This document shows, piece after piece, positions 3,935-26,210 of a stretch of DNA of 37,277 nt. Numbering within the stretch: position 1 is the stretch's first letter; each line of letters begins with the position of its first letter. Below the pieces are notes generated by a model that was not told the DNA's origin, did not search any database, and saw only the letters and a program-made list of their open reading frames with translations. The position numbers were made by a program, and so were the translations under genes. This stretch comes from a virus, in the IMG/VR virus record IMGVR_UViG_3300025732_000118, positions 1 through 37,277 of that record; one strand, given 5' to 3'.

Positions 3935-3938
3935 AATA

Positions 3939-6900: not shown

Positions 6901-8945
6901 ATACGATCTGAAGTACCTTCAATTCCTGCATTTCTTGCTTCTGATAAAGTTTTTTCTATCTCTTTTTGTCTATTAGCACTTTTTAAAGCTTCAAAGCTAA
7001 GAGCTTTACGAGCGTCAGCAATTTTATTTTCTTCCTCAAATTGTCTTTGAAGTTCTGGAATAATATTTTGTAGCTGTGTTATATAGTCCTCCAAATCCGC
7101 TAATGGAAGATTACTAGCAACATTTCCTAAAATAGGAACAGACTTTGAAAATTCTGGTTTGGCTAAAATTTTTGATACTCTTTTTTGTAAACTTTCAAGC
7201 TCATCGACTCGTTTTTTAGCAACTTCAATATCTTCTCCAGTTCCTACAATTCTATCCGACAGTTTTTGTTCTTCTGCTTGAGAGCCACCTAAAAATGTAT
7301 CATTCATCCAAGAAAAAAATCTTTTTCCTAGAGACCATAAAGAAGTTAAAGCCATTAAGGCTGATTTAAATACTTTTACAATAAAATTATCTTCTGGATT
7401 TATTTTTGTTTTTTCTTCTATTGTCGAGAAGATAGAGTTTAAAAGTTGGCCTACTGTTACTAAAGTTCCAATAATTGCTAAAAATTTAAATGCACCCGTT
7501 ATTACTTGTCCTGTAAAAACAGCAATAGTTTGAATTCCTTTTGCAGCTTGAGCCCATCGTAATCGAATATAGTTAAATCTTTCTCCAACAAAAATAGAAG
7601 AACGAAAAAAAGATTCATTAATTCTAGAAGTTGTAACTTGCCCTTGAGTAACTAGTTCATTTAAAGCATCTCTTGCTTGATCTAATTGTTGATCTGTCAG
7701 TGCTCCAAAATCAACTCCAAATAGACCCTGTGCTCTACCCATTCTTTCAAGTTCTAAGTTTTGTAATTGACCACGAACACTTGAAAGATCTATAGGCCCC
7801 GCTGTTAACCGTGCAATATCTTCTAAAAATTTAGGTTGCTGAAGACCTCCTGCTGTAAATAAATCGGTCAATCCAGTTCTAAACTCTCGAAGTTTTGCAA
7901 TAGGAGCAGCTAATTTTGAAGTTAAAAAATCTTGTGAACGTGCATACTCATCTGAACGTATTTTTAAATCAGCAATTTTTTCTGAAAGAGCTGTAATATT
8001 TTCTTCGCCACGCTTTCGTATTTCATCTGTGCTTGGCAAAGTTTGACCTATAACAGATGCGACTAATCCTCCAAACGCTAAAATAGCAGAGCTGGGGCTG
8101 CCGGAAATTGCTTTCGCAATTCCTTCAGCTATAGAAGAGACTACAGGTAAAATGGTATTTGCTACTTCGGAAAACGCTACTCCTAACTTACGAATTTCAT
8201 TTTGAGTATTTACTGTTGCGTCACCTAAATCTCCGTACTTTTCTTCAGCTTGTCGTAAGGTAAAAAGAGCAACACCTTGAGTACGTTCGTATGCGGTTAA
8301 TTCGCTTGCGGTTTTTCCTAAAGTTCGAGCATATTCGGAACTTGCATCTGCAAGTCTTAATACAATACCAAGTTCATCTAATAATTCTGGCTCTGCTTTT
8401 GTTATACCACGAACGAGTCGATTGAATGTGTCTTCTAGATCTCTTCCTAATACTGCCGAAATTGTGGCAGAATATTTTGCAATGTCTTGAAGCATTCCCG
8501 CACCAAGACCTGACGCAGTACCAATTGCGGCAGCTTGAGCTGCTTGAGTATAGCTTAGCTGAGCACCCGTTGCGGCTTGAATTGATTTTGTAATTGACGC
8601 ATACCCAGTGCCAGTAGCTTGAGTGAGTGCCTTTTGACCTTCCAATAAAATACGAAAGTCTGCGGCTCGAAGTAAAAATTGATACGCTGCCGAAAGTGCA
8701 AATACTTGTGCAGCCAAAGTGGCATAGACTGAAACCAGACCGCCCATCCCTTGAGACATTTTGGAAAAGTTTTTTGTAGCGTTAGAAGAAGCCTGTGCAG
8801 CTCCTTTTATATTTCTATCGGCTTGAGCAGCTCCAATAGAAGTCCGCGCTAAGGACTCGGAAAGTCTATCGGAATTAACAGCAACTCTGCGAGTGGTGCC
8901 ATTATCGTCTACTACAAGATCAATATAAATAGTATTTCTTGCCAT
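3939..8945 (-). CDS. H: Tail tape measure protein
   Basis: This is the longest gene in the window (1668 residues). It encodes the tape measure protein, which sets tail length and is injected with the DNA. The N-terminal 250 residues are Ala/Gly/Ser-rich with hydrophobic helices. Roughly residues 300-1350 are long charged coiled-coil stretches interrupted by hydrophobic helices near 465-500 and 520-545. A Gly-rich hydrophobic part follows near 1510-1560. The C-terminal segment FASGGVVNKPTLGLVGEG...EAVVPLPDG is the usual end of lambda H-like proteins. At about 1.5 angstrom per residue, the family rule predicts a tail of roughly 250 nm. No lysozyme or peptidase motif was recognised inside. It follows the GT product stop by 5 bases. 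Confidence 0.93.
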   Translation of the reverse strand: MARNTIYIDLVVDDNGTTRRVAVNSDRLSESLARTSIGAAQADRNIKGAAQASSNATKNFSKMSQGMGGLVSVYATLAAQVFALSAAYQFLLRAADFRILLEGQKALTQATGTGYASITKSIQAATGAQLSYTQAAQAAAIGTASGLGAGMLQDIAKYSATISAVLGRDLEDTFNRLVRGITKAEPELLDELGIVLRLADASSEYARTLGKTASELTAYERTQGVALFTLRQAEEKYGDLGDATVNTQNEIRKLGVAFSEVANTILPVVSSIAEGIAKAISGSPSSAILAFGGLVASVIGQTLPSTDEIRKRGEENITALSEKIADLKIRSDEYARSQDFLTSKLAAPIAKLREFRTGLTDLFTAGGLQQPKFLEDIARLTAGPIDLSSVRGQLQNLELERMGRAQGLFGVDFGALTDQQLDQARDALNELVTQGQVTTSRINESFFRSSIFVGERFNYIRLRWAQAAKGIQTIAVFTGQVITGAFKFLAIIGTLVTVGQLLNSIFSTIEEKTKINPEDNFIVKVFKSALMALTSLWSLGKRFFSWMNDTFLGGSQAEEQKLSDRIVGTGEDIEVAKKRVDELESLQKRVSKILAKPEFSKSVPILGNVASNLPLADLEDYITQLQNIIPELQRQFEEENKIADARKALSFEALKSANRQKEIEKTLSEARNAGIEGTSDRILKLQKESRDLADTIKRNEAAIKALNEEAPDLRPAGEGPGIPASLQKQTKIIATQSLAYAKLIPTLSKYVSILDKASKGQKVNANEVLQAIKAVDSNALAFSQAAASLKQYEEGYKTLQKEIIDSAALTGAEKLFSNVAGLVINLADAFKFASQTGQDLGVDSSNLKAELADLTKIAAELENQLNTAFRVKNLEVQLSGLSRQIDVFRDTQVGVELINQQALKENELEIAKIDEQLSLLGSKKTLFDFFNSKSPEIQKFIKAASTTVEGTALAAAGVSTAKSISTSFDEGSSAVKTAIKDGADYHANRMREALGMEDLPSRTPSRAGAPPAATTTENTTENTTSSTVVSSKELDTLKASQASIQENAMLREVALLKEQKIYAQILGGVQASNKAQQTGIQYLDQEEKINLEIAQLKNSIAGIEGTALDQLFLQIQGSNNLLKSQEKLNTAKDEAGKVEIKALEEALTKYIEIANQDGKIIESEQTLIDRLRAGLAERTRINDRQRELNDLQYDYNAALEKQKLLEARNNFIEERYKLIQNSLDIEKQLVSLANPFLQDELSARIEIRSTQEKINELQEKLIGTQGTRRQELLNTIESEKARLYVLQQQTSEVFKMGQALKSTFSEGLKTEIANFLKGGQLDVEQSFLNILKSVGEAAADQLADITTKNILSVMGLGEKDEAEIMRSAIVEASIEGSSYFAQAIAGASSGVAPLSQQGSGPGAPSETPTVGFGERMKGLAGDVKEYGQNIVKTFKDENTPFLNKLGSIFMADAPWIRGLVGGITTALGSLAMSRLGGGGGGNVWMNAIVGGLISGASAGFSSWLGGLGSTAGGLNSAALSRAASATPAAYNSWGLNTSLLQRSIGMANGGVLKGGFREFASGGVVNKPTLGLVGEGMYNEAVVPLPDGKSIPVIMKQEAPESIPTMIQQSGDKNNVSINVTVNSNGQTEAQNQGTGDRGVAMAQAMSAVVIQEIKRQKRHGGLLSPYS

Positions 8946-8950
8946 GGGGG

Positions 8951-9756
8951 TTAAGATCTAGCTTTCGCTGCTCTCTCAGAAGCTTTTCGCTTTTGAGAAA
9001 TTTTATCATTTGTAACGTCAACCGTAACTGATTCAATTATTTTTAATAGTTGAAAAATAAATGCTTGGTCTTCAACCTGAAATAAATTAAAAATTATTTG
9101 CAAAGAGGACCAATCTTTGCCCATATAAGTTCCGCTAGCCCCGTCCCACTTATCTGGTAAATAGCTATAAATAAAAAATGCCACTTGAGCCTCTACCGGA
9201 AAATCGGCATCGGTCAGTGGCATTTTTTCAGGATCAGGCAGACGACCTAGCTGTTCGCAAATAGCTAAGTATTTTTCAACTGATATATCGCCTTCTTGTT
9301 TTATACGGCGTCGAATTAGTTTACTTACTTCTTCGACTTGTTCTTCGAAAAATTTGCTAAGTCACCTACAGTATCTACTACCCAAGTATCAAAATCTGGG
9401 CTATTTTTCATAAGTGTTGCAGCATTATCGCTAGTATAAACAAGTTCTTTCATATCTGCCGGAAGTGTTGATGTATCCACTAACAGAAGCTCTTCTAAGT
9501 AAGATACTTTTAAACCTTTCCAGCCTTTTACTACAGCTTCCGTATACTCAGCTGCGAACCTATCTTCATCTAGCTCTTCTTCGGGTTGTCTAGTGCGTCG
9601 ATTAAACTTTGTAGTAACACAACGCTTACGAAGTTTTAACATTTCTTCCCGTGACAAAAAGCACAAGTCTACCATAAAACCAGGAAATCCTGGGTACTCA
9701 AAACTGACTACTTTGCTTGGAGTCAGTAGAGTAGAAAGAGAAATTGAATCTGCCAT
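8951..9756 (-). CDS. GT: Tail assembly chaperone GT (-1 frameshift fusion product)
   Basis: The second chaperone is made by a -1 ribosomal frameshift near the end of G. After the slip at A AAT TTT (9355-9349), the new frame reads FEEQVEEVSKLIRRRIKQEG and stays open, without a stop, through the reading frame beginning MPLTDADFPVEAQ (ATG at 9223) to the stop at 8951. The join is 9756-9349 then 9349-8951, giving about 268 residues. The T part has LPDKWDGASGTYMGKDWS and ends in a basic tail. In lambda, G and GT coat the tape measure protein and recruit tail tube subunits. Independent start at the internal ATG is less likely, because the 126 bases before it are coding-like and in frame. Confidence 0.85.
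9325..9756 (-). CDS. G: Tail assembly chaperone G
   Basis: The 143-residue product of the unshifted frame is the abundant tail assembly chaperone. Its position between tail tube and tape measure and its acidic helical composition fit lambda G. A slippery heptamer lies 8 codons before its stop. The last residues, NFSKNKSKK, are replaced by the T domain in the frameshift product. The N-terminal MADSISLSTLLTPSK and the segment FPGFMVDLCFLSREEMLKLR resemble chaperones of other siphoviruses. A consensus promoter lies about 65-95 bases upstream, so G begins its own transcript. Confidence 0.85.
   Translation of the reverse strand: MADSISLSTLLTPSKVVSFEYPGFPGFMVDLCFLSREEMLKLRKRCVTTKFNRRTRQPEEELDEDRFAAEYTEAVVKGWKGLKVSYLEELLLVDTSTLPADMKELVYTSDNAATLMKNSPDFDTWVVDTVGDLANFSKNKSKK
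9349..9355 (-). other. Programmed -1 frameshift site (A AAT TTT slippery heptamer)
   Basis: On the coding strand the frame is GCA AAT TTT TCG, so the heptamer fits X XXY YYZ in the correct register for a -1 slip. Both the incoming and receiving frames are open. Frameshifting at this place is a conserved feature of long-tailed phages. I did not identify a clear downstream pseudoknot. Confidence 0.85.
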
Positions 9757-9787
9757 AATATCTTTTCCAATTATTATACTTATAAAC

Positions 9788-9811
9788 GTAGGGGAGTATA
9801 TACTCCCCTAC
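9788..9811 (-). repeat. Perfect 24-nt palindrome in the leader of the G transcript
   Basis: The sequence GTAGGGGAGTA followed by its exact complement forms a 24-nt perfect palindrome. It begins only about 4 bases after the predicted start point of the adjacent minus-strand promoter, so the G mRNA would carry a 5' stem-loop. No U-run follows it in the minus direction (GTTTATAAG), which argues against a normal terminator. It could be a stabilising 5' hairpin, an operator, or a weak terminator for tail tube transcripts. Confidence 0.6.
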
Positions 9812-9821
9812 TTTGTAACCT

Positions 9822-9850
9822 ATTATAGATTACTACTACTTAAAAGTCAA
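9822..9850 (-). promoter_or_regulatory. Sigma70-type promoter for the tail chaperone/tail genes
   Basis: On the minus strand TTGACT (9850-9845) and TATAAT (9827-9822) are separated by exactly 17 bases. It lies in the 103-base gap between the tail tube and G, so it would start a separate transcript for G/GT, tape measure and tail tip genes, with transcription starting near 9815. Confidence 0.8.
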
Positions 9851-9859
9851 CTACTTTTT

Positions 9860-11095
9860 TTATGCAGGTGTCAGTCCGTAGTATTTAACCGTCATCTCAT
9901 TTGTATTTGTAATATCTGACGGTAGACCCATAAAGTTTACTTCTACAGAAATTACATCTTCAATTGAATGAGTTGGAATTTCTAAGTGAGCGTCTGGAAT
10001 ATTAAATTCTACTTTCGGGCTGCTTGCTCCGCCAATAGAGAACACTAACGGGAACTCATTTCGATCTTTGGTAGTATTCGCAACCATGTTACGGAATAGC
10101 GCACCTGAACTATTTGCCGAAGTATCATCGTCCAAGTAAGCAGTAAAAGTTCCAGAAACACTACGAGTTCCAGTTACATGTCCTAAAGGAATGTTAACTT
10201 TTGCAAGTTCTTCTGGAGTTAAATATGTAATATTGTTTTCAACAGTGATCGAACCCCCCGTAAGAACTATATTGTAGTATTTAGGATTGCCTCCTACGGC
10301 CCCGAACTCTGCCATAGTAGTACTTACGTTTGCAGTGGTTAAACGATTTCGAATAAATGAATTAGTTGAGTTAATTGCTTCATTTACACTATTTGCAGTT
10401 GTTAGCACTGCAGGGAAAGTGTTAGAATGCGAAATATTTTTTGCAAAGCCAGACCATTGCAATTGAGCAATTCCTTCAATATCAAAATCAATTGTAACAG
10501 CATTAACGACTGCATCAGTTAACTTGTAAACGGTTTCAGGAGCTGAAGTGTTACCTGTGGAACTCATTGCAAAATACATTTCAAAGGTGCGCAATGCAGT
10601 TTTGTTTGATTTTGCAAAATCAATAGTTAAGTTTGAAGTAGTTGAGTATACTCCAGTTGAAGTAGAGCCCCAGTTATTTCCAGCAGCTCTAGCTGTTCCT
10701 ACGTTAGCGGCAAAAGTTTCGCCAGCTCCCATTACCATATAAGCCCATAAAGGCTCTTCTACGGCATGAACATACCCAACGGCATTATCTACGTACCCAC
10801 CAACTGATGTAGTTCTTCCTCCCGCGGACTTAAAAGGACGAACATAAGTTGTTAAGCTCCACTCTACTGGTGCGAGCGCAGTATTAAAGGCTAATTTGCC
10901 TCTTCTTGATCTATTATTCGAGTCTGCGGCTTCTGTAAGAGTAACTTCAACACTTTCTGTTGCTTGACTAAATGCATAGCCATCTAATACTGGAATATCC
11001 CACCAAGTATTAGAGTTATTACTGCCGGTCAAAGTTGAGTCGAAATCTCGAATATATACTTTAGCATTTCTACTAAGTTGTAATGTTTCAGCCAT
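9860..11095 (-). CDS. Major tail tube protein
   Basis: The 411-residue protein occupies the position of lambda V, between the tail terminator and the chaperones. Its N-terminus (MAETLQLSRNAKVYIRDFDS) and beta-rich, Ser/Thr/Asn-rich composition fit tail tube proteins of siphoviruses, which form hexameric rings around the tape measure. It is longer than most tube subunits (about 200-250 residues). The additional segment, roughly residues 230-330, may be a surface domain. It has a good CGGAG ribosome site and a hairpin in the leader about 30 bases upstream. No similarity beyond context and composition could be checked. Confidence 0.78.
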   Translation of the reverse strand: MAETLQLSRNAKVYIRDFDSTLTGSNNSNTWWDIPVLDGYAFSQATESVEVTLTEAADSNNRSRRGKLAFNTALAPVEWSLTTYVRPFKSAGGRTTSVGGYVDNAVGYVHAVEEPLWAYMVMGAGETFAANVGTARAAGNNWGSTSTGVYSTTSNLTIDFAKSNKTALRTFEMYFAMSSTGNTSAPETVYKLTDAVVNAVTIDFDIEGIAQLQWSGFAKNISHSNTFPAVLTTANSVNEAINSTNSFIRNRLTTANVSTTMAEFGAVGGNPKYYNIVLTGGSITVENNITYLTPEELAKVNIPLGHVTGTRSVSGTFTAYLDDDTSANSSGALFRNMVANTTKDRNEFPLVFSIGGASSPKVEFNIPDAHLEIPTHSIEDVISVEVNFMGLPSDITNTNEMTVKYYGLTPA

Positions 11096-11123
11096 TTTGG
11101 TCTCCGAAACTGATTTCTCAGCA

Positions 11124-11144
11124 TTGAGCTTGAAGCAAGCTCAA
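11124..11144 (-). repeat. Hairpin between tail terminator and tail tube genes
   Basis: TTGAGCTTG (11124-11132) and CAAGCTCAA (11136-11144) pair perfectly as a 9-bp stem with a 3-base loop, just upstream of the tail tube start. No U-run follows in the minus direction, so it is more likely an mRNA processing or stability element for the highly expressed tube gene than a terminator. Confidence 0.5.
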
Positions 11145-11146
11145 AA

Positions 11147-11602
11147 TTAATATCGAACCTCGCACAATATTTCGCCGATTCCTAAAGGAGCCATTACTCC
11201 TTCATCGGTATCTAGGCTTAATATTGTTATTGCCTGAGTATACCCTTCCTGCCCTGAGCGAGTGGTATACTTCAGTCTACTATTATTTTCCAAGGACGTT
11301 TCAACGTCTTCCATTAGAGCCTCTAGTGCTTCTACAGGATCTTCTTCGTTTACATAGCAAGTGATTTTGATGCTTAAAAATCTATCTTTATAGCCACCGC
11401 CTTGATACGTGCGATTTTCTAATCCTGCGTTTACACATAAACTTGGAAATTCTTCAATTTCATCCCAATACTTTAATCGTGGATGAACATTTTGCGATAC
11501 ATCACTAACAAAAGTTCCTGTACCATTTATAGTTTTTAATACTTCTACAATCGCTTCTACTATAGCCAGTCGTCGTGTAGTATATATTCTTGAGACTGAC
11601 AT
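11147..11602 (-). CDS. Tail terminator protein (lambda U position)
   Basis: The 151-residue protein lies directly before the tail tube, the usual position of the tail terminator that caps the tube and joins it to the head. Features typical of the family are an N-terminal helix (RRLAIVEAIVEVLKTING), a central FPSLCVNAG strand, and a segment on component values ending in LGIGEILCEVRY. The length fits this family (about 130-160 residues). It starts 2 bases after the stop of the upstream large gene. The call rests on position, size and pattern. Confidence 0.7.
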   Translation of the reverse strand: MSVSRIYTTRRLAIVEAIVEVLKTINGTGTFVSDVSQNVHPRLKYWDEIEEFPSLCVNAGLENRTYQGGGYKDRFLSIKITCYVNEEDPVEALEALMEDVETSLENNSRLKYTTRSGQEGYTQAITILSLDTDEGVMAPLGIGEILCEVRY

Positions 11603-11604
11603 AG

Positions 11605-13293
11605 TTATATTCTCCGAGTATAAATTCGAGCCTTTAGCATTTCTGCTGCAATATTACGTATAGCTCGATCAATTAGTGGGCGAGGATCACGCTCTCGAGT
11701 AGCCCAGGGAAATCTTCCTATGCCCATCTCAAATACTTGGTAAGGATCTCGCTGATAAGTATAATCTATGCTCGGAAATCCTTGTTTGGTTTGTGTAATA
11801 TTTCTAACTTGAACACTTTGAGCAAATCTTCCTGTGCGTGTTTCAAGTCTAGGAGCTACCATTAATTTATCTAATTCTACGGGCAATTCTTTATTAATAT
11901 ATGTAATCATTTCTAAAGGACTTGCTGACAGTTTAGTTGGAGGCTCAATTGGTGCAGTTATTCCACGAACTGACTTAGCTTTGATTGGCGTGCCTTTTTT
12001 AGCTTTTGAAGTTTGCCCAGACTTTATAATATTTTTAGTAGAAGATTCAACAATTTCACTTGCTTTAACTTGTATAGCTTTATTTTTAGGGCCTTTTACT
12101 CTCACTCCTTTTGTTTTTAAAAGTTTATGCGTAACTTTTTGAAATAAGGCAGTCTCGATAACTTGAACTAAATTTGGAGACCCCGTGATATATGCGTATA
12201 AACTAGTAATTTTGCTTTTAATAAATAAAGAAGTATCTCGCTCTAAAGATGACTGAGAAGCATTAAATGCTGTGCCTTGTGTAGACACTATTACAGTCAT
12301 TTCCGATCTAAGGTTTCCTGTTTTCATATTAACATCATGTTTTAAAAAAGTTTCAACTCTATTTTCAACTATATCATTTATATTAACAGGAATTTCATTA
12401 AAACCTAAAGGAACAAATTTTCTTATAGCTTGAATTGCCATACCTTCAAGATTTTGAGCAGCTACATTATATAATAATTTTGCTACTCCTTTCATTGATT
12501 TGGCTTGCTCTCTTAGAGCAGCTGCACCTTCCCCCAAACTTCTAGTGATATTGAAGAGTTGGGCTGATAGACCTATTGAACCTCCATGTGCAACATCCAG
12601 ACTTCTATCAACTTTTTTTTCTGAATCGTTTAATTTTATTACCTGATTAGCACTTAATTTAAATATTTTTTTTAAATCGTCAATAATTGGTTTTATAAAT
12701 ACTTCTTTAATTTTTGCTTCTAAAGAATTATGATAATCTCTGCAATCTTGATGATTTTTAAATATAAACAAAAATTTAGTGTTTGAATCTTTTAAATTAT
12801 ATAATGAATTAGCTATTAATGTTTCTTTAAGACTTATTAATTCACTTCCTCTTTTTGTGATTGGCCCAAGTTGTTCATTACTAAGATTGCCAGATATTAT
12901 ACTTAATGCTTTTAGTTCTCTATCTTTTGCTAAACTTTTCGCCTCGACTATAAGATCATTTAACTGAGTCTTATAACTAAAAGAACTATCGAATATATTA
13001 ATCTTTAAACTATCTTCATTCTTTGTTTTTAAGTCTACAAAAGTATTTGTTTTTAGATTATCGTAATTTTCAAGTACAGTTCCAAAAATTCCATAACTTG
13101 ATGTGGTTCCAATCGTTCTTGCAGCACCTTTTCCTCTCAGCATCAAATCTAAAGTAAATTTTAATTCTTCTATGTCTAATATATAAATAGTACCAAGTCT
13201 ATTTTGTAGTTCTTCTCTTCTGGACCTATTTTTTTCGTCCATATCTTTGACTATAGCTGCGTTTATTTGACGTAAAGTTGCTCTTATAGTCAT
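11605..13293 (-). CDS. Large neck / tail-completion candidate protein (562 aa)
   Basis: This gene sits where phages usually encode a small tail-completion or neck protein (lambda Z or HK97 gp10 position), but it is about three times longer. The C-terminal 90 residues (LETRTGRFAQSVQV...DYTYQRDPYQVFEMG...PRPLIDRAIRNIAAEM) look like that class of protein, which often ends in a similar PR-[LI]-I...A motif. The first 450 residues are Lys-rich, partly helical and unfamiliar. One reading is a tail-completion domain with a large N-terminal extension; another is a virion protein with an unrelated role. It overlaps the upstream connector gene by 4 bases. Function is inferred from position only. Confidence 0.5.
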   Translation of the reverse strand: MTIRATLRQINAAIVKDMDEKNRSRREELQNRLGTIYILDIEELKFTLDLMLRGKGAARTIGTTSSYGIFGTVLENYDNLKTNTFVDLKTKNEDSLKINIFDSSFSYKTQLNDLIVEAKSLAKDRELKALSIISGNLSNEQLGPITKRGSELISLKETLIANSLYNLKDSNTKFLFIFKNHQDCRDYHNSLEAKIKEVFIKPIIDDLKKIFKLSANQVIKLNDSEKKVDRSLDVAHGGSIGLSAQLFNITRSLGEGAAALREQAKSMKGVAKLLYNVAAQNLEGMAIQAIRKFVPLGFNEIPVNINDIVENRVETFLKHDVNMKTGNLRSEMTVIVSTQGTAFNASQSSLERDTSLFIKSKITSLYAYITGSPNLVQVIETALFQKVTHKLLKTKGVRVKGPKNKAIQVKASEIVESSTKNIIKSGQTSKAKKGTPIKAKSVRGITAPIEPPTKLSASPLEMITYINKELPVELDKLMVAPRLETRTGRFAQSVQVRNITQTKQGFPSIDYTYQRDPYQVFEMGIGRFPWATRERDPRPLIDRAIRNIAAEMLKARIYTRRI

Positions 13294-13865
13294 ATTTTAT
13301 ACATATCAAGTACTCTTTTAATGTAGTCCGGAAAACTACCATCTTCGGAGTTCTTGGCATAAGAAATAGTGGCTGCTCCAAGACTTCTACGCTCTTTTCT
13401 TTCGTCTTTTAAGTAATATGTAACTAAATCAGCAATAGCAAGTTTTAAGTCAACTGGAGTATTTGCGTAGCCGCAAGTATAAGTAACTTTTACTGCACCA
13501 GTACCTTTTGGATAATTACGATAACGACCCTCTGAAGTTGTGCGAAATACACTGTCGGATACTATATCGACCCAGTAATCAGAATTTGCTACTAAAAGAA
13601 CATAATCTGAAGATTGAGTTTCTCTTTCATAAACAGAAGAAATATTTACAATTGGGCTATACTTTAACTGAGCAGTATAAGTATCCCATTGTATATCAAA
13701 ATACTCAACAAAAGGAGTTGAGTAATAATCGATTATAGGATTGTCACAATAGTTTCTTACAAGTTGACTAATACTAGGGATAAGCATATTGATTTTTTCG
13801 TCATCTTTTACGCCTGTAATTCCCATCAAAGTTTTATAGTCATCAATTGTTATTAAGTCTGCCAT
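13290..13865 (-). CDS. Head-tail connector (HK97 gp6-like adaptor)
   Basis: The 191-residue product fits the DNA-packaging/head-tail connector family that binds below the portal. The N-terminus MADLITIDDYKTLMGI, the early helices (LIPSISQLVRNYCDNPI), the beta strands LKYSPIVNISSVYE and the KVTYTCGYANTPVDLKLAIADLV motif are typical of gp6/gp15-type adaptors. It is the first gene after the capsid terminator and shares ATGA with the next gene. No separate promoter was recognised, so it may depend on read-through. Confidence 0.8.
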   Translation of the reverse strand: MADLITIDDYKTLMGITGVKDDEKINMLIPSISQLVRNYCDNPIIDYYSTPFVEYFDIQWDTYTAQLKYSPIVNISSVYERETQSSDYVLLVANSDYWVDIVSDSVFRTTSEGRYRNYPKGTGAVKVTYTCGYANTPVDLKLAIADLVTYYLKDERKERRSLGAATISYAKNSEDGSFPDYIKRVLDMYKI

Positions 13866-13908
13866 ATAATCAACTTATAAAAAACTTGACTGAGTAAATC
13901 GATTTAGA

Positions 13909-13938
13909 AAAAGGAGAGGGGAAGGCCCCTCTCCTTTT
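13909..13938 (-). terminator. Intrinsic terminator after the capsid gene
   Basis: A 13-bp perfect stem (13909-13921 with 13926-13938, loop AAGG) lies 20 bases downstream of the capsid stop codon. In the minus direction the stem is followed by a short T-run, TTTTTC when counted from the stem end. It would limit transcription from the capsid gene into the connector and tail genes. Confidence 0.85.
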
Positions 13939-13958
13939 GTTGCAAGCTACTATGTAAC

Positions 13959-15365
13959 TTACGAGGAAGGATACTGAAGTGCCCACTTCGAAGTGGCGCC
14001 ATCGATAAGATCGATAAAGCCGATTCTCTGTGAAGCAACCAGAACACGACGCTGATTTTCAACATCATAATCTGACTCAACAGTGACCCCACGAAGCCGA
14101 GGAACAACGAAGTTACGAGCGTAAACAGCCACTGCAGCATACTTGTTAGCAGCAGGAGTTGCAAACTCATCGCACAGCAGTACACGGCTTCCATACACTT
14201 GTCCTACTTGACCCGAAACCTTTGTAGCCAAGTTTCCAACTAGGTTCATATCTTGGAATTCTGCGTCTTCGAGCAGTTCAAAATAGGTGCGCTGGTTAAC
14301 GATGTAAACAACGTCTTCCGGGCGAACACCATACTTGCCCATGTTCTTACGCAGCGTTAACAGATTTGCAGTTGTAACAGCTGCATTTGCAGTCGTTACG
14401 CCAGTGATTTGAGTCTTGTGGCTGTCTAAATCTGCCAGCTTGATAAGACCGTCGTAAGAAGCGCCTGAAGTATTAAAAGGACCATCAGCATGATTACCTA
14501 CCAGCAGCGAAGCTTCGATTGCACGAGCATGCGAACGAATCATCGACTCACGAATCAACGGAAGAATCGGCAGAATTGCATCTTCTTCAGTTTCGTTGCC
14601 AAGATAGCTCTTCGAAATCAGCTTCTTCGTGGTCAGCACGCGTTCGGTCATCGATACGCCAATGTAAGGCGAACCGTATGCATTCGAACGAGGATCTAAG
14701 TTACCTTTCGGTGACGATCCGCTTGCGCTCTGGTTTGAAGTAAATTCTGCATAACCTGCGTCTGGCAGAATTGGCAGAATCAGACTTGCTGCGGTCATCT
14801 GAATTTCACGGAACAGAGGAGCAAGAATCAGAGCATTTTGAATATCACGCTCGATGCTTGTAGAAACGATCTGCTCGAAGTCAGCCGAAGAAACTTCTAC
14901 GCCTGCCTGAGTGTTTACTTTCTGAATCAGTGAACGTCCCAGAGTCGTGTCCTGCCAGCCCTTACGAGTTACCAGGCCTAGTACATATGCATCGTCAGCA
15001 TCTTTTGCAAATGCCTTCTTCCAGTCTGAGTCTGTACGATCATTGAAAATACGCTTTGATTCGCGCATCTTCATGATTTCTTGTGACTTTTCCGAAATTT
15101 CACCGCGCAGTTCGTTTACGATCTTTTCCAGATCGGCGTTCTTGTCGGCAAAACGCTTCTCAATGTCAGCTACAAGGCGCTCAGCACCCGTGGTTACTGC
15201 TACCGAGATTTTATCGGAGAGTGCCTTTTCTTCCGATTGCTTGCGAGCAGCTTCTTCTGCAGCAACTCGAGCCTTTTCTTCACGCTCAATTTGCGCAGCA
15301 GCTAACGTCTGTGCAGTCTTTTCTGCGACAGAAGCTACCAATGCTTCTAAATCTTTTGGATCCAT
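13959..15365 (-). CDS. Candidate nested in-frame product: scaffold-capsid made from internal start Met286
   Basis: Codon 286 of the fusion is an ATG (15365-15363) preceded by AAGGAG with 9 bases between, a stronger ribosome site than most in this genome. Starting there gives a 468-residue protein with the coiled-coil scaffold and the capsid fold, but no protease. Capsid subunits could thus be made in excess of protease, as lambda does with the nested C/Nu3 genes. The ribosome site and frame are seen; use of this start is inference. Confidence 0.6.
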   Translation of the reverse strand: MDPKDLEALVASVAEKTAQTLAAAQIEREEKARVAAEEAARKQSEEKALSDKISVAVTTGAERLVADIEKRFADKNADLEKIVNELRGEISEKSQEIMKMRESKRIFNDRTDSDWKKAFAKDADDAYVLGLVTRKGWQDTTLGRSLIQKVNTQAGVEVSSADFEQIVSTSIERDIQNALILAPLFREIQMTAASLILPILPDAGYAEFTSNQSASGSSPKGNLDPRSNAYGSPYIGVSMTERVLTTKKLISKSYLGNETEEDAILPILPLIRESMIRSHARAIEASLLVGNHADGPFNTSGASYDGLIKLADLDSHKTQITGVTTANAAVTTANLLTLRKNMGKYGVRPEDVVYIVNQRTYFELLEDAEFQDMNLVGNLATKVSGQVGQVYGSRVLLCDEFATPAANKYAAVAVYARNFVVPRLRGVTVESDYDVENQRRVLVASQRIGFIDLIDGATSKWALQYPSS

Positions 15366-16220
15366 GTGTTTAATCTCCTTAGTTGCGACTTTAGTCGCTT
15401 CTCCCGGCGCAGTGGCGCTCGAAGATTCAGCATTTACTTTTTCTTCAAGTCCTTCTAGGCCGTCATTCATGAACGTTCTTTTAAATAATTGATAATCCTC
15501 GGACGAATCAAAGGACTTTGACAATGAAAAGACGGCAGATTGATTTGCCGGTACAGAAACAACCGAAATCTCAAACAGTTCTGCGTCCTTAACTCTAAAT
15601 CCGTCGGTTTCCGGCATATAATCGGCATCCTTGATTCGAAAACCTACGGAAAAAGCGCCAAGGACTCCGTCTTTGATTAAGTCTAAAATCTCGCCAGCGG
15701 CTTTTGAGATTTTAGCCTTGATTCGTAAACCATCTGGATCTGGGTGAATTTCTACCGCTTTTCCAATTGGTTTTGCATACGAGTGATTGAAAAGAATTAC
15801 TGGATTTTTACGATAGTTATCCAGACCTCCTTTCATCCAAGCATTTGTTTCGATGATATCGCCAGTGCGATCAACATCTGGAGTGCTGGCAAGACCTGTA
15901 ATATAGGTATCACCATCTTCTGAAACAAGAGCTTTAAATTCTGTGCTTAAAAAGAAATTTTTATTCATAGCAATATCTACTCCCTTCGTAGCTTCTTCTT
16001 TACTAATTTTAGTAAGAGTAGAAACTTTGTGCCCTACAAGAGTTTCAGTTTCTTTTCCATCACGATAAATACGAATAAGTGCAGCAGGATCATCTTTACT
16101 AGCATTAATAGAAAAACTACTACCAGGAACTCCTAGAACACCTTCTGTCATTATATGTTCAATTCTTCCTTTGGCTGTGCCTCCAGAAGAATTCCACTTT
16201 ACATAATCTCCTACTTTCAT
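13959..16220 (-). CDS. Fused Tudor-like / S78 prohead protease / scaffold / HK97-fold major capsid protein
   Basis: One 753-codon frame holds the whole head-assembly set. Residues 1-75 (KVGDYVKWNSSGGTAKGRIE..., SKDDPAALIR) resemble the HVA1/DUF2945 Tudor-like domain. Residues about 105-232 are an HK97-type prohead protease with likely catalytic His146 (FNHSY), Ser191 (AFSVGF) and an acidic residue near 214-217 (ELFEISVVSVPANQSA). Residues about 285-390 are a charged Ala/Glu coiled coil expected to act as scaffold (delta domain). Residues about 400-753 are the HK97-fold capsid (ILPILPDAGYAEF..., QRRVLVASQRIGFIDL). Protease-capsid fusions are known; the N-terminal Tudor-like domain is less usual. 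Its start overlaps the upstream gene by ATGA. Confidence 0.92.
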   Translation of the reverse strand: MKVGDYVKWNSSGGTAKGRIEHIMTEGVLGVPGSSFSINASKDDPAALIRIYRDGKETETLVGHKVSTLTKISKEEATKGVDIAMNKNFFLSTEFKALVSEDGDTYITGLASTPDVDRTGDIIETNAWMKGGLDNYRKNPVILFNHSYAKPIGKAVEIHPDPDGLRIKAKISKAAGEILDLIKDGVLGAFSVGFRIKDADYMPETDGFRVKDAELFEISVVSVPANQSAVFSLSKSFDSSEDYQLFKRTFMNDGLEGLEEKVNAESSSATAPGEATKVATKEIKHMDPKDLEALVASVAEKTAQTLAAAQIEREEKARVAAEEAARKQSEEKALSDKISVAVTTGAERLVADIEKRFADKNADLEKIVNELRGEISEKSQEIMKMRESKRIFNDRTDSDWKKAFAKDADDAYVLGLVTRKGWQDTTLGRSLIQKVNTQAGVEVSSADFEQIVSTSIERDIQNALILAPLFREIQMTAASLILPILPDAGYAEFTSNQSASGSSPKGNLDPRSNAYGSPYIGVSMTERVLTTKKLISKSYLGNETEEDAILPILPLIRESMIRSHARAIEASLLVGNHADGPFNTSGASYDGLIKLADLDSHKTQITGVTTANAAVTTANLLTLRKNMGKYGVRPEDVVYIVNQRTYFELLEDAEFQDMNLVGNLATKVSGQVGQVYGSRVLLCDEFATPAANKYAAVAVYARNFVVPRLRGVTVESDYDVENQRRVLVASQRIGFIDLIDGATSKWALQYPSS

Positions 16221-16489
16221 TCTTCGGCAGGTTTAGAAGCTCGACGAGGCTTTACAGGCTCTTCTTCCGCTTCTCTTGCCACAGCATGAATTCCATCAAT
16301 TTTTGCAGCCAGTTCAGGGTGATACTTACGAATCTTACCTGGAATTCTTCCCCAAGACCCAAAGCACCGTATAATTAAATTTGGGCTAACTGGAAAGTCA
16401 GCCTGTTGCTTATACTCTCGCATTGTCATAAATTTATTTTTTTCTGCGAAATATTTGGCAACAATTTCTAAAAGTTGTCCTTTTGTCAT
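16217..16489 (-). CDS. Small basic protein of unknown function between portal and capsid
   Basis: The 90-residue product is not recognised with certainty. The middle part (REYKQQADFPVSPNLIIRCFGSWGRIPGKIRKYHPEL) has the look of a short DNA-binding repeat sometimes found next to homing endonucleases (FGSW...). The C-terminus is charged and disordered (EAEEEPVKPRRASKPAEE). It is coupled to the capsid fusion by an ATGA overlap and lies 2 bases after the upstream gene, so it is co-expressed with head genes. A nucleic-acid-binding role is only a guess. Confidence 0.6.
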   Translation of the reverse strand: MTKGQLLEIVAKYFAEKNKFMTMREYKQQADFPVSPNLIIRCFGSWGRIPGKIRKYHPELAAKIDGIHAVAREAEEEPVKPRRASKPAEE

Positions 16490-16491
16490 AG

Positions 16492-16827
16492 TTATACCGT
16501 AGTTAAATTGAATTTGGGTGAAGTTACCATACCTAGCGTGCTGGTAGCAATCACATAAAATTCGTAAGTTGTAGCTCCATCATATACTGAAGAAGTATTT
16601 GCGATTCCAGTACTTGTATTCAAAGATAGATTACCTGTGTTACCACTTGTACTAAAACTTAAATTTGCTCCTGTAAAATAAGTAGCAAAGTTAAATTCAG
16701 TAGTTCCTCTATCTACAAGCGGCAAACTCAGGGATAAAACTGAGTTTGCTTTATAAGCAAATTTTACTCGTGGACGTCTACGACGCCGACGCATTGCTCC
16801 TTCAAAGCTTCCGTCGCCGTATTCCAT
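16492..16827 (-). CDS. Small Arg-rich / Ig-like domain protein, possible head decoration
   Basis: The 111-residue product starts with an unusual Arg cluster (AMRRRRRRPRVKF), followed by a Thr/Ser/Gly-rich beta-sandwich-like part (NFATYFTGANLSFSTSGNTG) ending in TTYEFYVIATSTLGMVTSPKF. The second part resembles putative Ig or cadherin-like folds common on phage surfaces. Its location between portal and capsid genes suggests a minor head or decoration role. Its start codon overlaps the portal stop by one base. No family was assigned. Confidence 0.55.
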   Translation of the reverse strand: MEYGDGSFEGAMRRRRRRPRVKFAYKANSVLSLSLPLVDRGTTEFNFATYFTGANLSFSTSGNTGNLSLNTSTGIANTSSVYDGATTYEFYVIATSTLGMVTSPKFNLTTV

Positions 16828-18047
16828 TATGCGCTTTCCGCTTCGTCGCTAGGGCGACCACCAATGTCAGGATTTACTGCAGACCCAGCGATGTTGGCAG
16901 GAACTCGAATCGCATCTAAACCTTCCATCGGCTCCTTACCAAGCTTTACTCGCGCTTCGTTCGGAGTTAAAATTCCACCGTTTACAAGCGTCGAGTAGTA
17001 TCTTGCTTGATCGCTCAACTCTGGCTGCAGTGCTGGAATATTTGTGACATCCTCAGTTAAATTAAATCCGAAGAATCTTTCAAAAGCAAACATATACTTA
17101 CGCAAAATCGGCATTACCGTCTCAAGATAGTAAAGCCGATGATTTGGGCGAATGTTTGCATTATTACCAGAGTCAAGCAGCAACGGAGGCACACCAATTG
17201 ATTTTAGAATAATATTTTCAAGAGCAACTACAGACGACTGAAAATCCATCTCTTTGAAGTTGATATTACTGATAGTATCAATTTCAAGACCGCCATCTAA
17301 AATAATTGGTCTACGTCCACCGCCATCTGGGCGGTAACGAGTTTGCCAAGCTTGTAACATACGCTCTTTTACTTTATCGCTTAACGTGCTGGGACTTTTA
17401 ATGATAAGTCCTGGCACTGCTCCATTGTCGAAGAAGTTATCTTGAAATCTTCGCATCTTGGAAAGGAGCTGCATAGTGCGATAAGCGGGTCGCAGCCGAG
17501 AAACTCCACGATAAATTGAGTAGAACGAATTCTCCTTAATATGAACGATTTCCCACGGCTTAAAGTCGAGCAGACCATCATAGACATATCCTGCAATATA
17601 GTTTTTCTTATCTGGTATAATTTCAACGAGATTTGCAGGCAAATGATATAGATACAAACCGTCAAAGTAAACAAATATGTTTCCGTCAATTACGTAGTCA
17701 ACGAAAAGATTTCTTCGAAAACTATTGATATCCTGATAAGGATTTGGCTGTAAATTTAACAAACTGTAAACTTGCTTTTGCCGAAACACTGGAACAATAG
17801 ATCCATTTTCTGTTGCAGGTCTTGCTCCAGGAATAATACCCGGCAGTTTATTGCCAACAGCAATTGGAATCTCAGCAATGTCATCTACGAGCATGTTTAC
17901 CGCTCGATTGACAACTTCCAAATTTTCATACTGTACGCGATAGTTATTTACAATTTCCCGCGATTCAATAAGCGACCCTTCAGACAGAGCTATACTCGGC
18001 TGAGCGGGGTTTTCTTTGGTTGTAGTCCAGAAATTATACCATGCCAT
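16827..18047 (-). CDS. Portal protein (HK97 family)
   Basis: The 406-residue protein forms the dodecameric portal through which DNA is packaged and ejected. Recognisable portal features are the N-terminal EVVNRAVNMLVDDIAEIPI helix, DINSFRRNLFVDYVIDGNIFVY, the FRDNFF-like segment RRFQDNFFDNGAVPG, the LPA/NANIRPNHRLYYLETV part, and the C-terminal LVNGGILTPNEARVKLGKEP. The length is normal for HK97-type portals. The gene starts inside the last 14 bases of the HNH gene, and its stop overlaps the next start by one base. The operon order HNH-portal-capsid is typical. Confidence 0.92.
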   Translation of the reverse strand: MAWYNFWTTTKENPAQPSIALSEGSLIESREIVNNYRVQYENLEVVNRAVNMLVDDIAEIPIAVGNKLPGIIPGARPATENGSIVPVFRQKQVYSLLNLQPNPYQDINSFRRNLFVDYVIDGNIFVYFDGLYLYHLPANLVEIIPDKKNYIAGYVYDGLLDFKPWEIVHIKENSFYSIYRGVSRLRPAYRTMQLLSKMRRFQDNFFDNGAVPGLIIKSPSTLSDKVKERMLQAWQTRYRPDGGGRRPIILDGGLEIDTISNINFKEMDFQSSVVALENIILKSIGVPPLLLDSGNNANIRPNHRLYYLETVMPILRKYMFAFERFFGFNLTEDVTNIPALQPELSDQARYYSTLVNGGILTPNEARVKLGKEPMEGLDAIRVPANIAGSAVNPDIGGRPSDEAESA

Positions 18048-18402
18048 TTCTTAGTTTTTCCAACCATCGCTTCTGTTTTTCAGCGGTTCCAAGTCCAGGG
18101 TTTTTTCCATAGACAGAATGTAATTGTAAGTGGTGCGTGTGGCAAAGCGTGACTGCTTCATCGTATAACTCTCGTGTATGCGTTTCTATGAATTTATCTC
18201 GAATATTTAGAATATCTTCTTCATTTTGAGGGTTGTGTCGATTTTTTCTCATCCACACATTAAGTAGTTCGGTTAAACTATAGAAGTGATGAAAATCTAA
18301 ATTATCTGACGATTCACAGACGTAACACTCATTTCCTTTAGCATATCGTCCTTTTGCTTTATCACGCACATACTTTACTAAATCGCGTGCAAGTTTTGTC
18401 AT
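18034..18402 (-). CDS. HNH endonuclease next to the terminase
   Basis: The 122-residue product has a zinc-type HNH nuclease layout: CYVC at residues 26-29, DFHHF (His38, His39), and LCHTHH with Cys87 and His90, then a further His. HNH proteins beside terminase genes help cleave DNA during cos packaging in HK97-like phages, so this one probably works with TerS/TerL. The frame is open to a TTG at 18435, but that lies inside the -35/-10 region of a consensus promoter, so the ATG at 18402 is chosen. The predicted transcript then has a leader of only about 5 bases. The end overlaps the portal start. Confidence 0.85.
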   Translation of the reverse strand: MTKLARDLVKYVRDKAKGRYAKGNECYVCESSDNLDFHHFYSLTELLNVWMRKNRHNPQNEEDILNIRDKFIETHTRELYDEAVTLCHTHHLQLHSVYGKNPGLGTAEKQKRWLEKLRNGMV

Positions 18403-18414
18403 ATTTTGAACTTC

Positions 18415-18443
18415 ATTATAGAGCGAAAACAACAAACTGTCAA
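18415..18443 (-). promoter_or_regulatory. Perfect consensus sigma70 promoter for HNH-portal-capsid
   Basis: Minus strand TTGACA (18443-18438) and TATAAT (18420-18415) are 17 bases apart, a full consensus match. The predicted start, near 18407, falls about 5 bases before the HNH start codon, implying a nearly leaderless message. It sits between terL and the HNH gene and would drive the head genes. Confidence 0.88.
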
Positions 18444-18463
18444 CTGCTAAATTTTTTTATGTG

Positions 18464-19747
18464 TTAAAAAATTGTAGACGAAGTTTTAAAGCTATAAAGT
18501 GCGTATCGTAACGCGTCCGCCATGTGGCTAGCATAGTTGTGTTTTGGCTTTTCTTTTAACAAATTTGGGTTTTCATCCCACTGGTATGCATCCAGTGCGA
18601 CAAGTGTATGCTTACAATTTCCAGATACAATGAGATTGTTATTTTCCACGATACTGGCAACATGCCCAATTCCACTTAACACATCTTTTTCTGCATTGGT
18701 AGTTGCAATTCCAAAGTTTTGTGCTAAATCGAAGCGAACCTGCTGAGCCGCAGAATCGATGAAAATAAAATCGGGGTTCCAGCGAGCTATCATTTCATTC
18801 AGCGCTTCCGCATGTTGTTCCGTAGTTCGCTCCGCTTGTAGATACTCGTCAAGCACATAATACTTTTGCGAGTCCCAATCGTAGGCAAGCATGCAAAGAG
18901 CTGTGGGATCTTTGAAGCCCCAGTCCAACCCCGCGATGATGTCCATGCGTTCTACGTTCAATTCTTCCAGATTTGATACGCAAGCCGCAGCATCAAACTT
19001 CCACACCTGTCCTTCGAACACGTTAAAGTCTGCTAGGTATTCCTGAGCAAACTCCGCAGCTGACATAGTTTTACGCGCTTCTGCAATGTTTTCTGAGTTT
19101 TCTCGTGGATTGTCTTTCCAAGTTGCACGAATCGAAGCCCACTGAGGATACTCGTCAGAAAATCCACGAGCCCAAAATCGGCTAAACCAGTTGTTTTTAC
19201 CGCGAGGAGTTGAGATGAAGATGGCTCGTGCGTTCGGTTTGTCCAGCGTCGGTCTTAAAGCCACGTTAAAAGCGTTTTCACCGTCTGCTAGTGCAGCTTC
19301 GTCGAAGATGATAAGATCGTAGGAGCGTCCAACGGCAGAGTCCACTTGGTTCACTGAACCCATTCGAATCGTAGACTTGTTGCTCAACTCGATTACACGA
19401 TCCTTCGCATTGTCACGTTCCACTTCAAGCGAAAAGTGATCAATAAGACTACGTTGTAAATCGAACGAGATTTGAGAGAGATTGTAATTCGGGGCCATGA
19501 TCAGCACGTTACAGCTAGGAACTAGAGTAATTAACTGACCAATAATATTTGCAATAAAAGTTTTACCCTGCCGTCGAGAAACTGCAGCGACGACAAAGCG
19601 ATATTTTTGAATTGCATTTAATATTGCAATCTGAGACGGAATTGGATCTACATTTAAAAGTTCGAGATAGGGAGCTATCGGAAGTTTAATAAAAGTTTTA
19701 CATTCTTCTACAAATTCACACTGTATATCCGATCTACTTATTTCCAT
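18464..19747 (-). CDS. terL: Terminase large subunit
   Basis: The 427-residue protein is the packaging ATPase and nuclease. Visible motifs are Walker A SRRQGKT (57-63), Walker B LIIFDE (145-150, Glu150 catalytic), the coupling motif STPRG (179-183), and the RNase H-like nuclease acids Asp275 (AGLDWG), Asp331 (FIDSAA) and Asp411 (SHMADALRY). The length is normal. It overlaps the upstream membrane protein gene by 14 bases. It acts at the portal with TerS and probably with the HNH protein. The absence of a terminator before the downstream HNH promoter suggests that both transcripts run on. Confidence 0.95.
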   Translation of the reverse strand: MEISRSDIQCEFVEECKTFIKLPIAPYLELLNVDPIPSQIAILNAIQKYRFVVAAVSRRQGKTFIANIIGQLITLVPSCNVLIMAPNYNLSQISFDLQRSLIDHFSLEVERDNAKDRVIELSNKSTIRMGSVNQVDSAVGRSYDLIIFDEAALADGENAFNVALRPTLDKPNARAIFISTPRGKNNWFSRFWARGFSDEYPQWASIRATWKDNPRENSENIAEARKTMSAAEFAQEYLADFNVFEGQVWKFDAAACVSNLEELNVERMDIIAGLDWGFKDPTALCMLAYDWDSQKYYVLDEYLQAERTTEQHAEALNEMIARWNPDFIFIDSAAQQVRFDLAQNFGIATTNAEKDVLSGIGHVASIVENNNLIVSGNCKHTLVALDAYQWDENPNLLKEKPKHNYASHMADALRYALYSFKTSSTIF

Positions 19748-20012
19748 TAAAATGATACCGATGAAAGTAAAAAGCCCATGTAAACAATCCAGCTAAAAAG
19801 AAGTTTAACACCGTTTCGCCGAGTGGAACGTTTGCTGTAAAGTTTACCGCGTTCCACGCGGAAGATGCAATCACTCCACAAACTGCGACGCGTAGTGTCC
19901 AGTGATTTACAGACTTCCATTTATTTATCACATTGTTTTCGTTTCCAAAAAGTACAATATAAAAAAGCACCATGGCTGTACATAGTGCTCCATTTGCAAT
20001 TGCGTTTATCAT
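19734..20012 (-). CDS. Small membrane protein, holin-like
   Basis: The 92-residue product has three likely membrane segments: about residues 8-23 (GALCTAMVLFYIVLF), 40-58 (LRVAVCGVIASSAWNAV) and 68-85 (VLNFFLAGLFTWAFYF), with a short basic C-terminal tail. Size and topology fit a class I type holin or a spanin-independent lysis membrane protein. It is placed, unusually, between terS and terL, overlapping terL by 14 bases and the next membrane gene by ATGA. Holin is inferred only from size, topology and the adjacent partner; no endolysin is in the window. Confidence 0.6.
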   Translation of the reverse strand: MINAIANGALCTAMVLFYIVLFGNENNVINKWKSVNHWTLRVAVCGVIASSAWNAVNFTANVPLGETVLNFFLAGLFTWAFYFHRYHFNGNK

Positions 20013-20293
20013 TTTTTAGTGTCCAGAATACGGCGAGCTAGAAAGTCAATGCCGTTAAGTCCTAAATATCCGAGAATAAACGCAATGCCAAACTCCATAT
20101 TTCGACTTTGTACGTGAATTAAATCCACTACTATCGGTGTAAGATAGTTGGCTGAGCCTACTCCGGTGCCTATGCTAATCAATGCGCTTCCCAATCTTTT
20201 GGAAGCTCCGCTTTTGAGTGTAAGTAATGAGCCAAATAAACCTGCAACGATAAGACCGGCGTTCATGCCGATCTCCGCTAGAAATTCTTTCAT
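20009..20293 (-). CDS. Small membrane protein, putative holin or antiholin
   Basis: The 94-residue product has three probable membrane segments: residues about 11-27 (AGLIVAGLFGSLLTL), 35-58 (GSALISIGTGVGSANYLTPIV) and 68-85 (FGIAFILGYLGLNGIDF), with a charged C-terminus RRILDTKK. The ANYLTP...GIAFILGYLGL pattern resembles putative phage holins I recall from other tailed phages. With its neighbour at 19734-20012 it could form a holin/antiholin pair. It shares 4-base overlaps with both terS and the neighbour, so all are translated from the terS transcript. Confidence 0.65.
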   Translation of the reverse strand: MKEFLAEIGMNAGLIVAGLFGSLLTLKSGASKRLGSALISIGTGVGSANYLTPIVVDLIHVQSRNMEFGIAFILGYLGLNGIDFLARRILDTKK

Positions 20294-20736
20294 GATTGCA
20301 GTAGCTTTTCCATCAACTTACCGTAATTACCAGCACCAAATGGAGTCTCATTTATCTGAACGTTGGTTTGATTTTGAATGCGAGTCTCACGACTTTTTTC
20401 GTATTCAGTCATTGCTCGAATTTCATCCATACGCATTTTATGAGCTAGTTGCAGTAAATCGGCTAAGTCCTTGTTAGTGTACATCTCTGTGCTTTCTGCT
20501 TCACGTAATTTTTCGTTAATCAGCAAATCCAAAGTTTCCGCTAACTTAAAACGATTTCGATATCCATAATCTAAATAAATAGAATCTATATATGCGCGAA
20601 CTTCTCGACGTGCCAGTATCTCGGTTACGTCATTTTCAGAAATTGCAAGCGAACGAGCAACTTGCTGTATGCTTCCGTTTTGCAGATAAGCATTTGCAAC
20701 TTCAAGATTTTCTGGAGAAATTTTTACCAAGTTCAT
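20290..20736 (-). CDS. terS: Terminase small subunit
   Basis: The 148-residue product has an N-terminal helix-turn-helix-like region (NAYLQNGSIQQVARSLAISENDVTEIL) and central helices (LAETLDLLINEKLREAE, DLADLLQLAHKMRMDEI) as in small terminase subunits that recognise the packaging site. It is located upstream of terL with two small membrane genes between. The frame is open back to 21000, but the upstream part is low-complexity repeat DNA. The ATG at 20736 lies exactly at the expected start point of a consensus promoter (7 bases after the -10), so the message is probably leaderless. Confidence 0.82.
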   Translation of the reverse strand: MNLVKISPENLEVANAYLQNGSIQQVARSLAISENDVTEILARREVRAYIDSIYLDYGYRNRFKLAETLDLLINEKLREAESTEMYTNKDLADLLQLAHKMRMDEIRAMTEYEKSRETRIQNQTNVQINETPFGAGNYGKLMEKLLQS

Positions 20737-20743
20737 GACAGCT

Positions 20744-20772
20744 ATTATACTTTGTGCATAAAGTTTTGTCAA
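20744..20772 (-). promoter_or_regulatory. Perfect consensus sigma70 promoter for terS-terL
   Basis: Minus strand TTGACA (20772-20767) and TATAAT (20749-20744) have a 17-base spacer. Only 7 bases separate the -10 from the terS ATG, so the start codon would be at or next to the 5' end of the RNA. Confidence 0.88.
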
Positions 20773-20774
20773 CA

Positions 20775-20882
20775 ACTTTTTTTGAAGGGGTATTGATACT
20801 TTTTTGGACTTTTTTGAAGTTTTTTTGAAATTACTGCACTTTTTGAAATTTACTGCTTTAAAATGAACTTTTTGAAATTTAC
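20775..20882. repeat. Six ACTTTTTTGAA-type direct repeats upstream of terS (candidate packaging / TerS-binding site)
   Basis: Copies of an A/G-C-T5-7-G-(A/G)-A core start at 20775, 20798, 20808, 20819, 20838 and 20867, all in the same orientation. The last three extend to GAAATT(T)AC. Distances of 23, 10, 11, 19 and 29 bases include near helical-turn spacing. The array is directly upstream of the terS promoter. Lambda has its cosB repeats just before its small terminase gene, so a role in TerS binding is plausible. A replication origin or a regulatory site are alternatives. From 20883 to 21007 the sequence is GC-richer, with no gene recognised. Confidence 0.55.
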
Positions 20883-21007
20883 CTAAAGTTGCGCGTGTGG
20901 GGGAGCGCAGCCGGCAAGCTACTTGACAGTCTAATAACCCCCCAGGCCCTAGGCCTCTATACCACACTCGAGTAGTGATTGCAAGAAAAAAATTTATCAT
21001 TGCTCTA

Positions 21008-26125: not shown

Positions 26126-26210
26126 GCGGAAGTGGTGAAATTGGTAGACACGCAGGATTTAGGTTTCTGTGCTGCAAAGCGTGTGGGTTCGAGTCCCACC
26201 TTCCGCACCA
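26126..26210 (+). tRNA. tRNA-Leu (anticodon UAG)
   Basis: The 85-nt gene has a 7-bp acceptor stem GCGGAAG/CTTCCGC, a D arm with GGTAGAC, anticodon loop TTTAGGT (anticodon TAG), a long variable arm typical of tRNA-Leu, the T arm GTGGGTTCGAGTCCCAC, and an encoded CCA end. It closely parallels E. coli tRNA-Leu(UAG). It sits within the transcript of the 25727 promoter. It would read CUA and other CUN codons, which the AT-rich phage genes use. Confidence 0.96.

Follow-up and report, generated by a model that had tools for sequence, protein, structure and literature searches.

In phage lambda, a second ribosome site within the open reading frame (ORF) of the protease C gives rise to Nu3, an abundant, in-frame and protease-free product that comprises the scaffold only, the capsid being encoded by the separate gene E. 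We know of no covarying hairpin before the internal Shine-Dalgarno (SD) sequence of lambda. In Gifsy-2, reportedly described by Effantin et al. in 2010 as having a "tripartite capsid gene", and in the family NCBIfam NF045541, protease, scaffold and capsid share one ORF, and the Gifsy-2 protease is ClpP-like. Nested in-frame genes and protease-scaffold-capsid fusions, the latter including that of PAJU2, are both already known. T5-like phages encode protease and capsid in two ORFs with an intervening stop codon, and in T7 the leader of gene 10, a major capsid gene, carries a stem-loop upstream of a strong SD in an untranslated region. The order of the protease-to-capsid ratio to be met is given by published copy numbers, which are about 415 for the capsid and about 60 for the protease in HK97, and about 90 for the protease in D3 (PMC12749128).

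In this study, we examine a stretch of viral DNA of 37,277 nucleotides (IMG/VR record IMGVR_UViG_3300025732_000118; hereafter the window), in which one long ORF of the minus strand encodes a protease, a scaffold and a capsid (Table 1). A sequence-only reading had proposed that an internal ribosome site makes a nested scaffold-capsid product from this ORF, and had argued that such a phage needs far fewer proteases than capsids. The HK97 and D3 copy numbers fit the stoichiometric argument, and the nested product gains support from the sequence, since the site is kept in relatives and the product matches the stand-alone capsid precursor of T5. With a probability of roughly 0.9, the comparisons below indicate that the gene is an in-frame nested pair, in which an SD-driven internal start would yield an abundant scaffold-capsid protein and a rarer upstream start the protease fusion.

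Table 1. Features of the fused ORF and its flanks, in window coordinates
Feature	Position	Strand	Basis or remark
Fused ORF	13959..16220	-	753 codons; TUDOR-like N-terminus, S78 prohead protease, scaffold, HK97-fold capsid
Hva1_TUDOR-like N-terminal domain, residues 4-57	16050..16211	-	PF11160, E 2e-8
Codon 85 ATG, probable start of the protease part	15966..15968	-	GGGAG 11 nt upstream (15980-15984)
Prohead protease part, S78	15465..15968	-	PF04586, TIGR01543; His146 and Ser191 invariant in alignment
Linker, residues 252-287, disordered, hypervariable, bears the RNA signals	15360..15467	-	pLDDT < 50; alignment
Upstream hairpin HP1, TCTTC-GA-GCGC-CACT-GCGC-CG-GGAGA	15400..15425	-	Second dip of the synonymous-codon profile
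Hairpin HP2, GCGAC-TAAA-GTCGC, 4 nt 5' of the SD	15385..15398	-	Equivalent in essentially all relatives
SD AAGGAG, 9 nt from the ATG	15375..15380	-	Sequence, duplex energy, conservation
Internal start ATG, codon 286	15363..15365	-	Invariant in 193/193 relatives
Scaffold (delta) domain, residues 286-434	14919..15365	-	T5 alignment, helices 288-393
HK97-fold major capsid domain, residues 435-753	13962..14918	-	Profile, structure model, T5 homology
Intrinsic-terminator-like hairpin right after the capsid stop	13914..13931	-	Sequence

The locus resembles lambda C/Nu3 in having an in-frame internal start with its own SD, placed at a domain boundary and under selection, and differs from it in that the nested product holds both scaffold and capsid. 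It shares the single ORF with Gifsy-2 and NF045541, but its protease is of the S78 type rather than ClpP-like, and its NF045541 score of 54.2 bits lies below that family's cut-off of 525. The nearest annotated or solved relatives by sequence are T5 and its kin (Demerecviridae), with the same gene order, although their two ORFs are here one frame. A stem-loop upstream of a strong SD at a major capsid gene recalls the T7 gene 10 leader, but in the window it lies within a translated ORF. A limited literature search found no fusion combined with a universal, covarying hairpin before an internal SD. Phages with a fused protease, scaffold and capsid face a ratio problem, and this locus suggests an answer encoded across a large and diverse group of aquatic and environmental viruses. 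An ORF annotated as "capsid" in this group very likely stands for two proteins, of which the abundant one is internally started and overlooked by gene callers, and the internal start would correct the predicted size of the capsid precursor. Delivery of the protease is suggested to be covalent and sub-stoichiometric, and the covarying hairpin inside a coding sequence offers a testable model of bacterial internal initiation.

The protease part scores above the cut-offs of both S78 profiles (PF04586, 54.4 bits against 21; TIGR01543, 66.3 against 59), and the capsid part, an HK97-fold protein with an N-terminal delta domain, is homologous to that of T5 (8ho3, E 2.8e-54; 5tjt, E 1.6e-46). In an AlphaFold2 model from a 51-sequence alignment, residues 252-287 are of low confidence, a long scaffold helix begins at residue 288, and the scaffold helices run to residue 393. 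Codon 286 lies two residues ahead of the scaffold helix and inside the disordered linker, so its placement at the protease/scaffold boundary in the sequence-only reading was right. A T5-like capsid precursor of 458 aa aligns over residues 294-735 of the fused protein, and the mature T5 capsid protein (5tjt) is alignable from residue 435; the 468-aa nested product would therefore consist of scaffold (286-434) followed by capsid (435-753). Cleavage is predicted after Lys434, which is invariant. The TUDOR-like domain is missing or swapped in most relatives, which can be aligned only from codon 85. At the other end of the ORF, the terminator-like hairpin sits between the capsid and head-completion genes, and strong GC-rich stems occupy the equivalent position in many relatives.

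The minus-strand context of the codon 286 ATG is CTAAGGAGATTAAACACATGGAT. Both the ATG and the upstream AAGGAG are where they had been reported, except that the upper limit then given to the feature, 15377, splits the SD. Only 1 of the 14 Met codons of the fused ORF, codon 286, is preceded by AAGGAG. Among 21 start sites of the window it has the best SD, with a predicted duplex energy of -9.1 kcal/mol. The structural genes of the minus strand (2117-21000) mostly start with a weak SD or none; apart from the internal capsid start, strong SDs among these starts belong to codon 85, to the gene at 11602 and to the major tail gene.

Relatives came from scans of IMG/VR in which the portal protein served as a query beside the fused protein and three divergent relatives; they comprise 193 distinct fused ORFs of about 40-98% identity, which form 60 clusters at 85% identity. 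Two of the search patterns were TKEIKHMD and QEKTMDNE, but nearly all loci were retrieved by different peptides and do not contain these strings. The internal ATG is kept in every one of the 193, while the neighboring linker residues vary. In one alignment (A2) the Met of the window stands one column off owing to a linker indel, and in a larger alignment all fall in a single column. AAGGAG, AGGAG, AAGGA or GGAG precedes the ATG in 102 of 105 distinct contexts, mostly at 6-9 nt, and the remaining three have merely GAG or GGA. Loss of the site from close relatives with the same fusion, which the sequence-only reading had named as evidence against itself, was thus looked for in this set and not seen. 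The comparison of homologues that it had suggested also indicates that the ATG and SD are kept beyond what the protein demands: 58 of 60 clusters have GGAG or AAGGA, whereas 11.4 would carry it if synonymous codons were drawn anew from the codon usage of each phage (maximum 25 in 20,000 simulations). The fusion frame is intact in the window and in all relatives that cover the junction, including loci fetched by the portal protein, a retrieval independent of the fusion; as the frame is never broken, both products appear to be selected. By these sequence comparisons the ATG, the SD, the hairpin described below and the unbroken frame are all under selection. The internal SD is stronger than the upstream one in 27 relatives and weaker in 18, and since it is not always the stronger, the predicted excess of the nested product rests on the window and on stoichiometry. 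One relative also occurs on a bacterial contig of a gammaproteobacterial MAG, which may be a binned phage contig.

The hairpins that precede the SD are an addition to the sequence-only reading. HP2 is replaced elsewhere by TGCGGC-ctcc-GCCGCA, GAGGA-gaaa-TCCTC, GAACTGA-aaag-TCAGTTC, ACAGAC-aatac-GTCTGT, GGAGAAACA-attac-TGTTTCTCC, GTGGG-ttcg-CCCAC and others, with the loop centered about 23.5 nt before the ATG. A stem whose 3' end lies 11-20 nt before the ATG is present in 100 of 105 contexts, and by eye the other five have weaker or wider-loop forms. When folding was compared with that of synonymous recodings, the profile for the most part stayed near zero in the 400 nt covered, showed less deep dips further upstream, and was lowest at -33..-7 (mean z -1.84; below -1 in 92% of the 60 clusters). 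In the ungapped alignment A1, compensatory changes occur at all six pairs, with a covariation of 0.511 as compared to 0.127 in shuffled and 0.04-0.122 in slid controls. Because A1 consists of sequences selected for a hairpin at -23.5, the fair test is the unselected one, in which the center at -23.5 ranked first of 149 possible, both for the 105 contexts and for the 60 clusters. Rfam at gathering score gave no match over the hairpin-SD region; its only matches in the window were two plus-strand tRNAs, tRNA-Leu at 26126-26210 and tRNA-Arg (tct) at 26941-27015. Two other candidates were rejected. An internal promoter was searched for as the sigma-70 type only, and the minus strand has no such site close to the element; frameshifting does not suit the order of hairpin, SD and ATG, and by eye no shared slippery heptamer lies upstream of the hairpins.

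We propose that upstream initiation, most likely at codon 85 or else at codon 1, would produce the protease-scaffold-capsid fusion, and that ribosomes at the hairpin-SD-ATG element would produce the 468-aa protein, the counterpart of the separate capsid precursor of T5 (458 aa). The nested product would be expected in excess, and the rare fusion would co-assemble through its own capsid domain, so that the protease would enter the prohead covalently attached and, once there, could cut off scaffold and linker. Initiation at codon 286, the ratio of the products, incorporation into the prohead and the job of the hairpin are what we infer from these data. The distance from the 3' end of the stem to the ATG has a median of 16 nt (5-95%, 13-19), and about 16 nt before the ATG is where ribosome footprints place the rear edge of an initiating ribosome; the hairpin would form a closed local fold at this edge. 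It probably insulates or stabilizes the internal ribosome site. Most likely it would keep upstream coding RNA off the SD and start codon, and it may also stabilize a processed mRNA, two roles that sequence alone does not separate. When the synonymous codons of the hairpin were redrawn in silico, opening the ribosome-binding site cost about 0.7 kcal/mol more (Wilcoxon P 5e-4), a small effect that took the expected direction in 39 of 60 clusters and the opposite one in 14. A tentative extension, to which we give clearly less than even odds, is that the hairpin or hairpins and the SD form a dedicated RNA element that enables internal initiation within a translated ORF, for example by refolding behind passing ribosomes and keeping the start open, and that thereby sets the protease-to-capsid ratio. 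Ordinary starts between genes would have no need of such control, and this would account for the hairpin being universal here and optional at the major tail gene.

That gene (start 11095) bears directly on a different account, in which the hairpins act mainly in mRNA processing or as 5'-end stabilizers, and a nuclease cut further upstream would yield a stable mRNA that encodes the capsid alone and has the hairpin as its 5' end, similar to the T7 gene 10 leader. In the window, two tandem hairpins, TTGAGCTTG-ctt-CAAGCTCAA and GCTGA-gaaa-TCAGT, likewise stand ahead of its SD (11109-11144, minus strand); the tail gene of some relatives has instead TTAAGTACTA-aaag-TAGTACTTAG, which extends into the SD. 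Many relatives also carry a second hairpin further upstream of HP2, and the T7 gene 10 stem-loop placed before an SD raised output 1.5- to 3-fold and stabilized mRNA in a Cupriavidus necator reporter (PMC6146998). However, the range of hairpin-ATG distances is narrower than one would expect if the hairpin served 5'-end protection alone, and the search of the minus strand near the element gave no promoter-like site. Moreover, the tail gene of the relatives has its SD in 49 of 49 cases but a hairpin in 20 of 49, which makes the universal hairpin a property of the internal capsid start. We consider a main role in processing unlikely, though a serious contender.

Another possibility is that the Met and the purine-rich codons before it serve the protein, for instance as a site at which the protease releases itself from the scaffold, with no initiation. 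A self-cutting protease requires a release site, and an invariant Met beside a disordered linker would suit one. But the residues flanking the Met are unconserved, the hairpin covaries whatever the amino acids, and the SD is kept at the nucleotide level through different residues and codon phases. It is supplied by TCAAGGAAA coding S-R-K in place of AAGGAG coding K-E; one clade uses TCA AGG AAA, and others use AAG GAG or ACG GAG. Where a Glu falls at the SD, its codon is GAG 44 times out of 54, the background being 25%. A feature of the protein alone is therefore improbable. Elongation can be slowed by hairpins and by SD-like sequences, and both might pause the ribosome and give the protease time to fold ahead of scaffold synthesis, with no second product. 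Pausing would leave unexplained both the invariant ATG at a fixed initiation spacing and its match to the point where the separate T5 capsid genes begin, and we hold it to be very improbable. Hardly any weight can be given to the ATG and SD being remnants from a time, not long ago, when two T5-like genes fused. In T5-like phages these genes are neighbors, and the few to about 18 nt between them contain an SD-ATG; yet the fusion spans about 40-98% identity, the ATG is undecayed within a decayed linker, and the synonymous-codon tests point to present selection.

Returning to the nested pair, its hairpin is not shared by a more distant family of S78-type fusions, which includes Pseudomonas phage PAJU2, prophages of the E. 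coli O157 type (E. coli matches number 1,246 among 5,426 genomes) and plasmid-prophage relatives in Ewingella, Salmonella, Citrobacter, Arsenophonus, Enterobacter and Bradyrhizobium. As in the window, an in-frame start with an SD lies at the junction, in 11 of 11 members sampled (ATG in 10, GTG in one), but their capsid belongs to another lineage, the HK97 type TIGR01554. None of those sampled has a hairpin before the SD at this position, so internal starts as such do not require one; judged by these sequences, the nested start looks general among protease-capsid fusions and the hairpin specific to the group of the window. An Acinetobacter relative is split at the junction, and its capsid gene starts at its own ATG. 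In split T5-like loci (L280-L287, L293-L310), stems of the form CTAGC-N6-GCTAG and TACCT-N6-AGGTA precede the capsid ATG by 20-30 nt, within the end of the protease gene, and are possibly an older form of HP2, as seen in few independent lineages.

As most relatives start at the equivalent of codon 85, upstream initiation probably takes place there (15968) and not at 16220. The predicted SD duplex energy is -7.9 kcal/mol at codon 85 as against +1.0 at codon 1, which amounts to no SD; codon 1 could be reached from the gene before it, with which the ORF overlaps in an ATGA. Codon 85 is itself a second probable internal start, with AAGGGAG 11 nt upstream (15966-15986), and since the TUDOR-like N-terminus is an additional fused part, the ORF may give three nested products. 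Four relatives (L104, L112, L205, L108) carry long N-terminal extensions of the protease, 280-370 aa of TUDOR-like or DUF3721 type, which bring the frame to as much as about 1030 codons, a polyprotein that is growing at its protease end.
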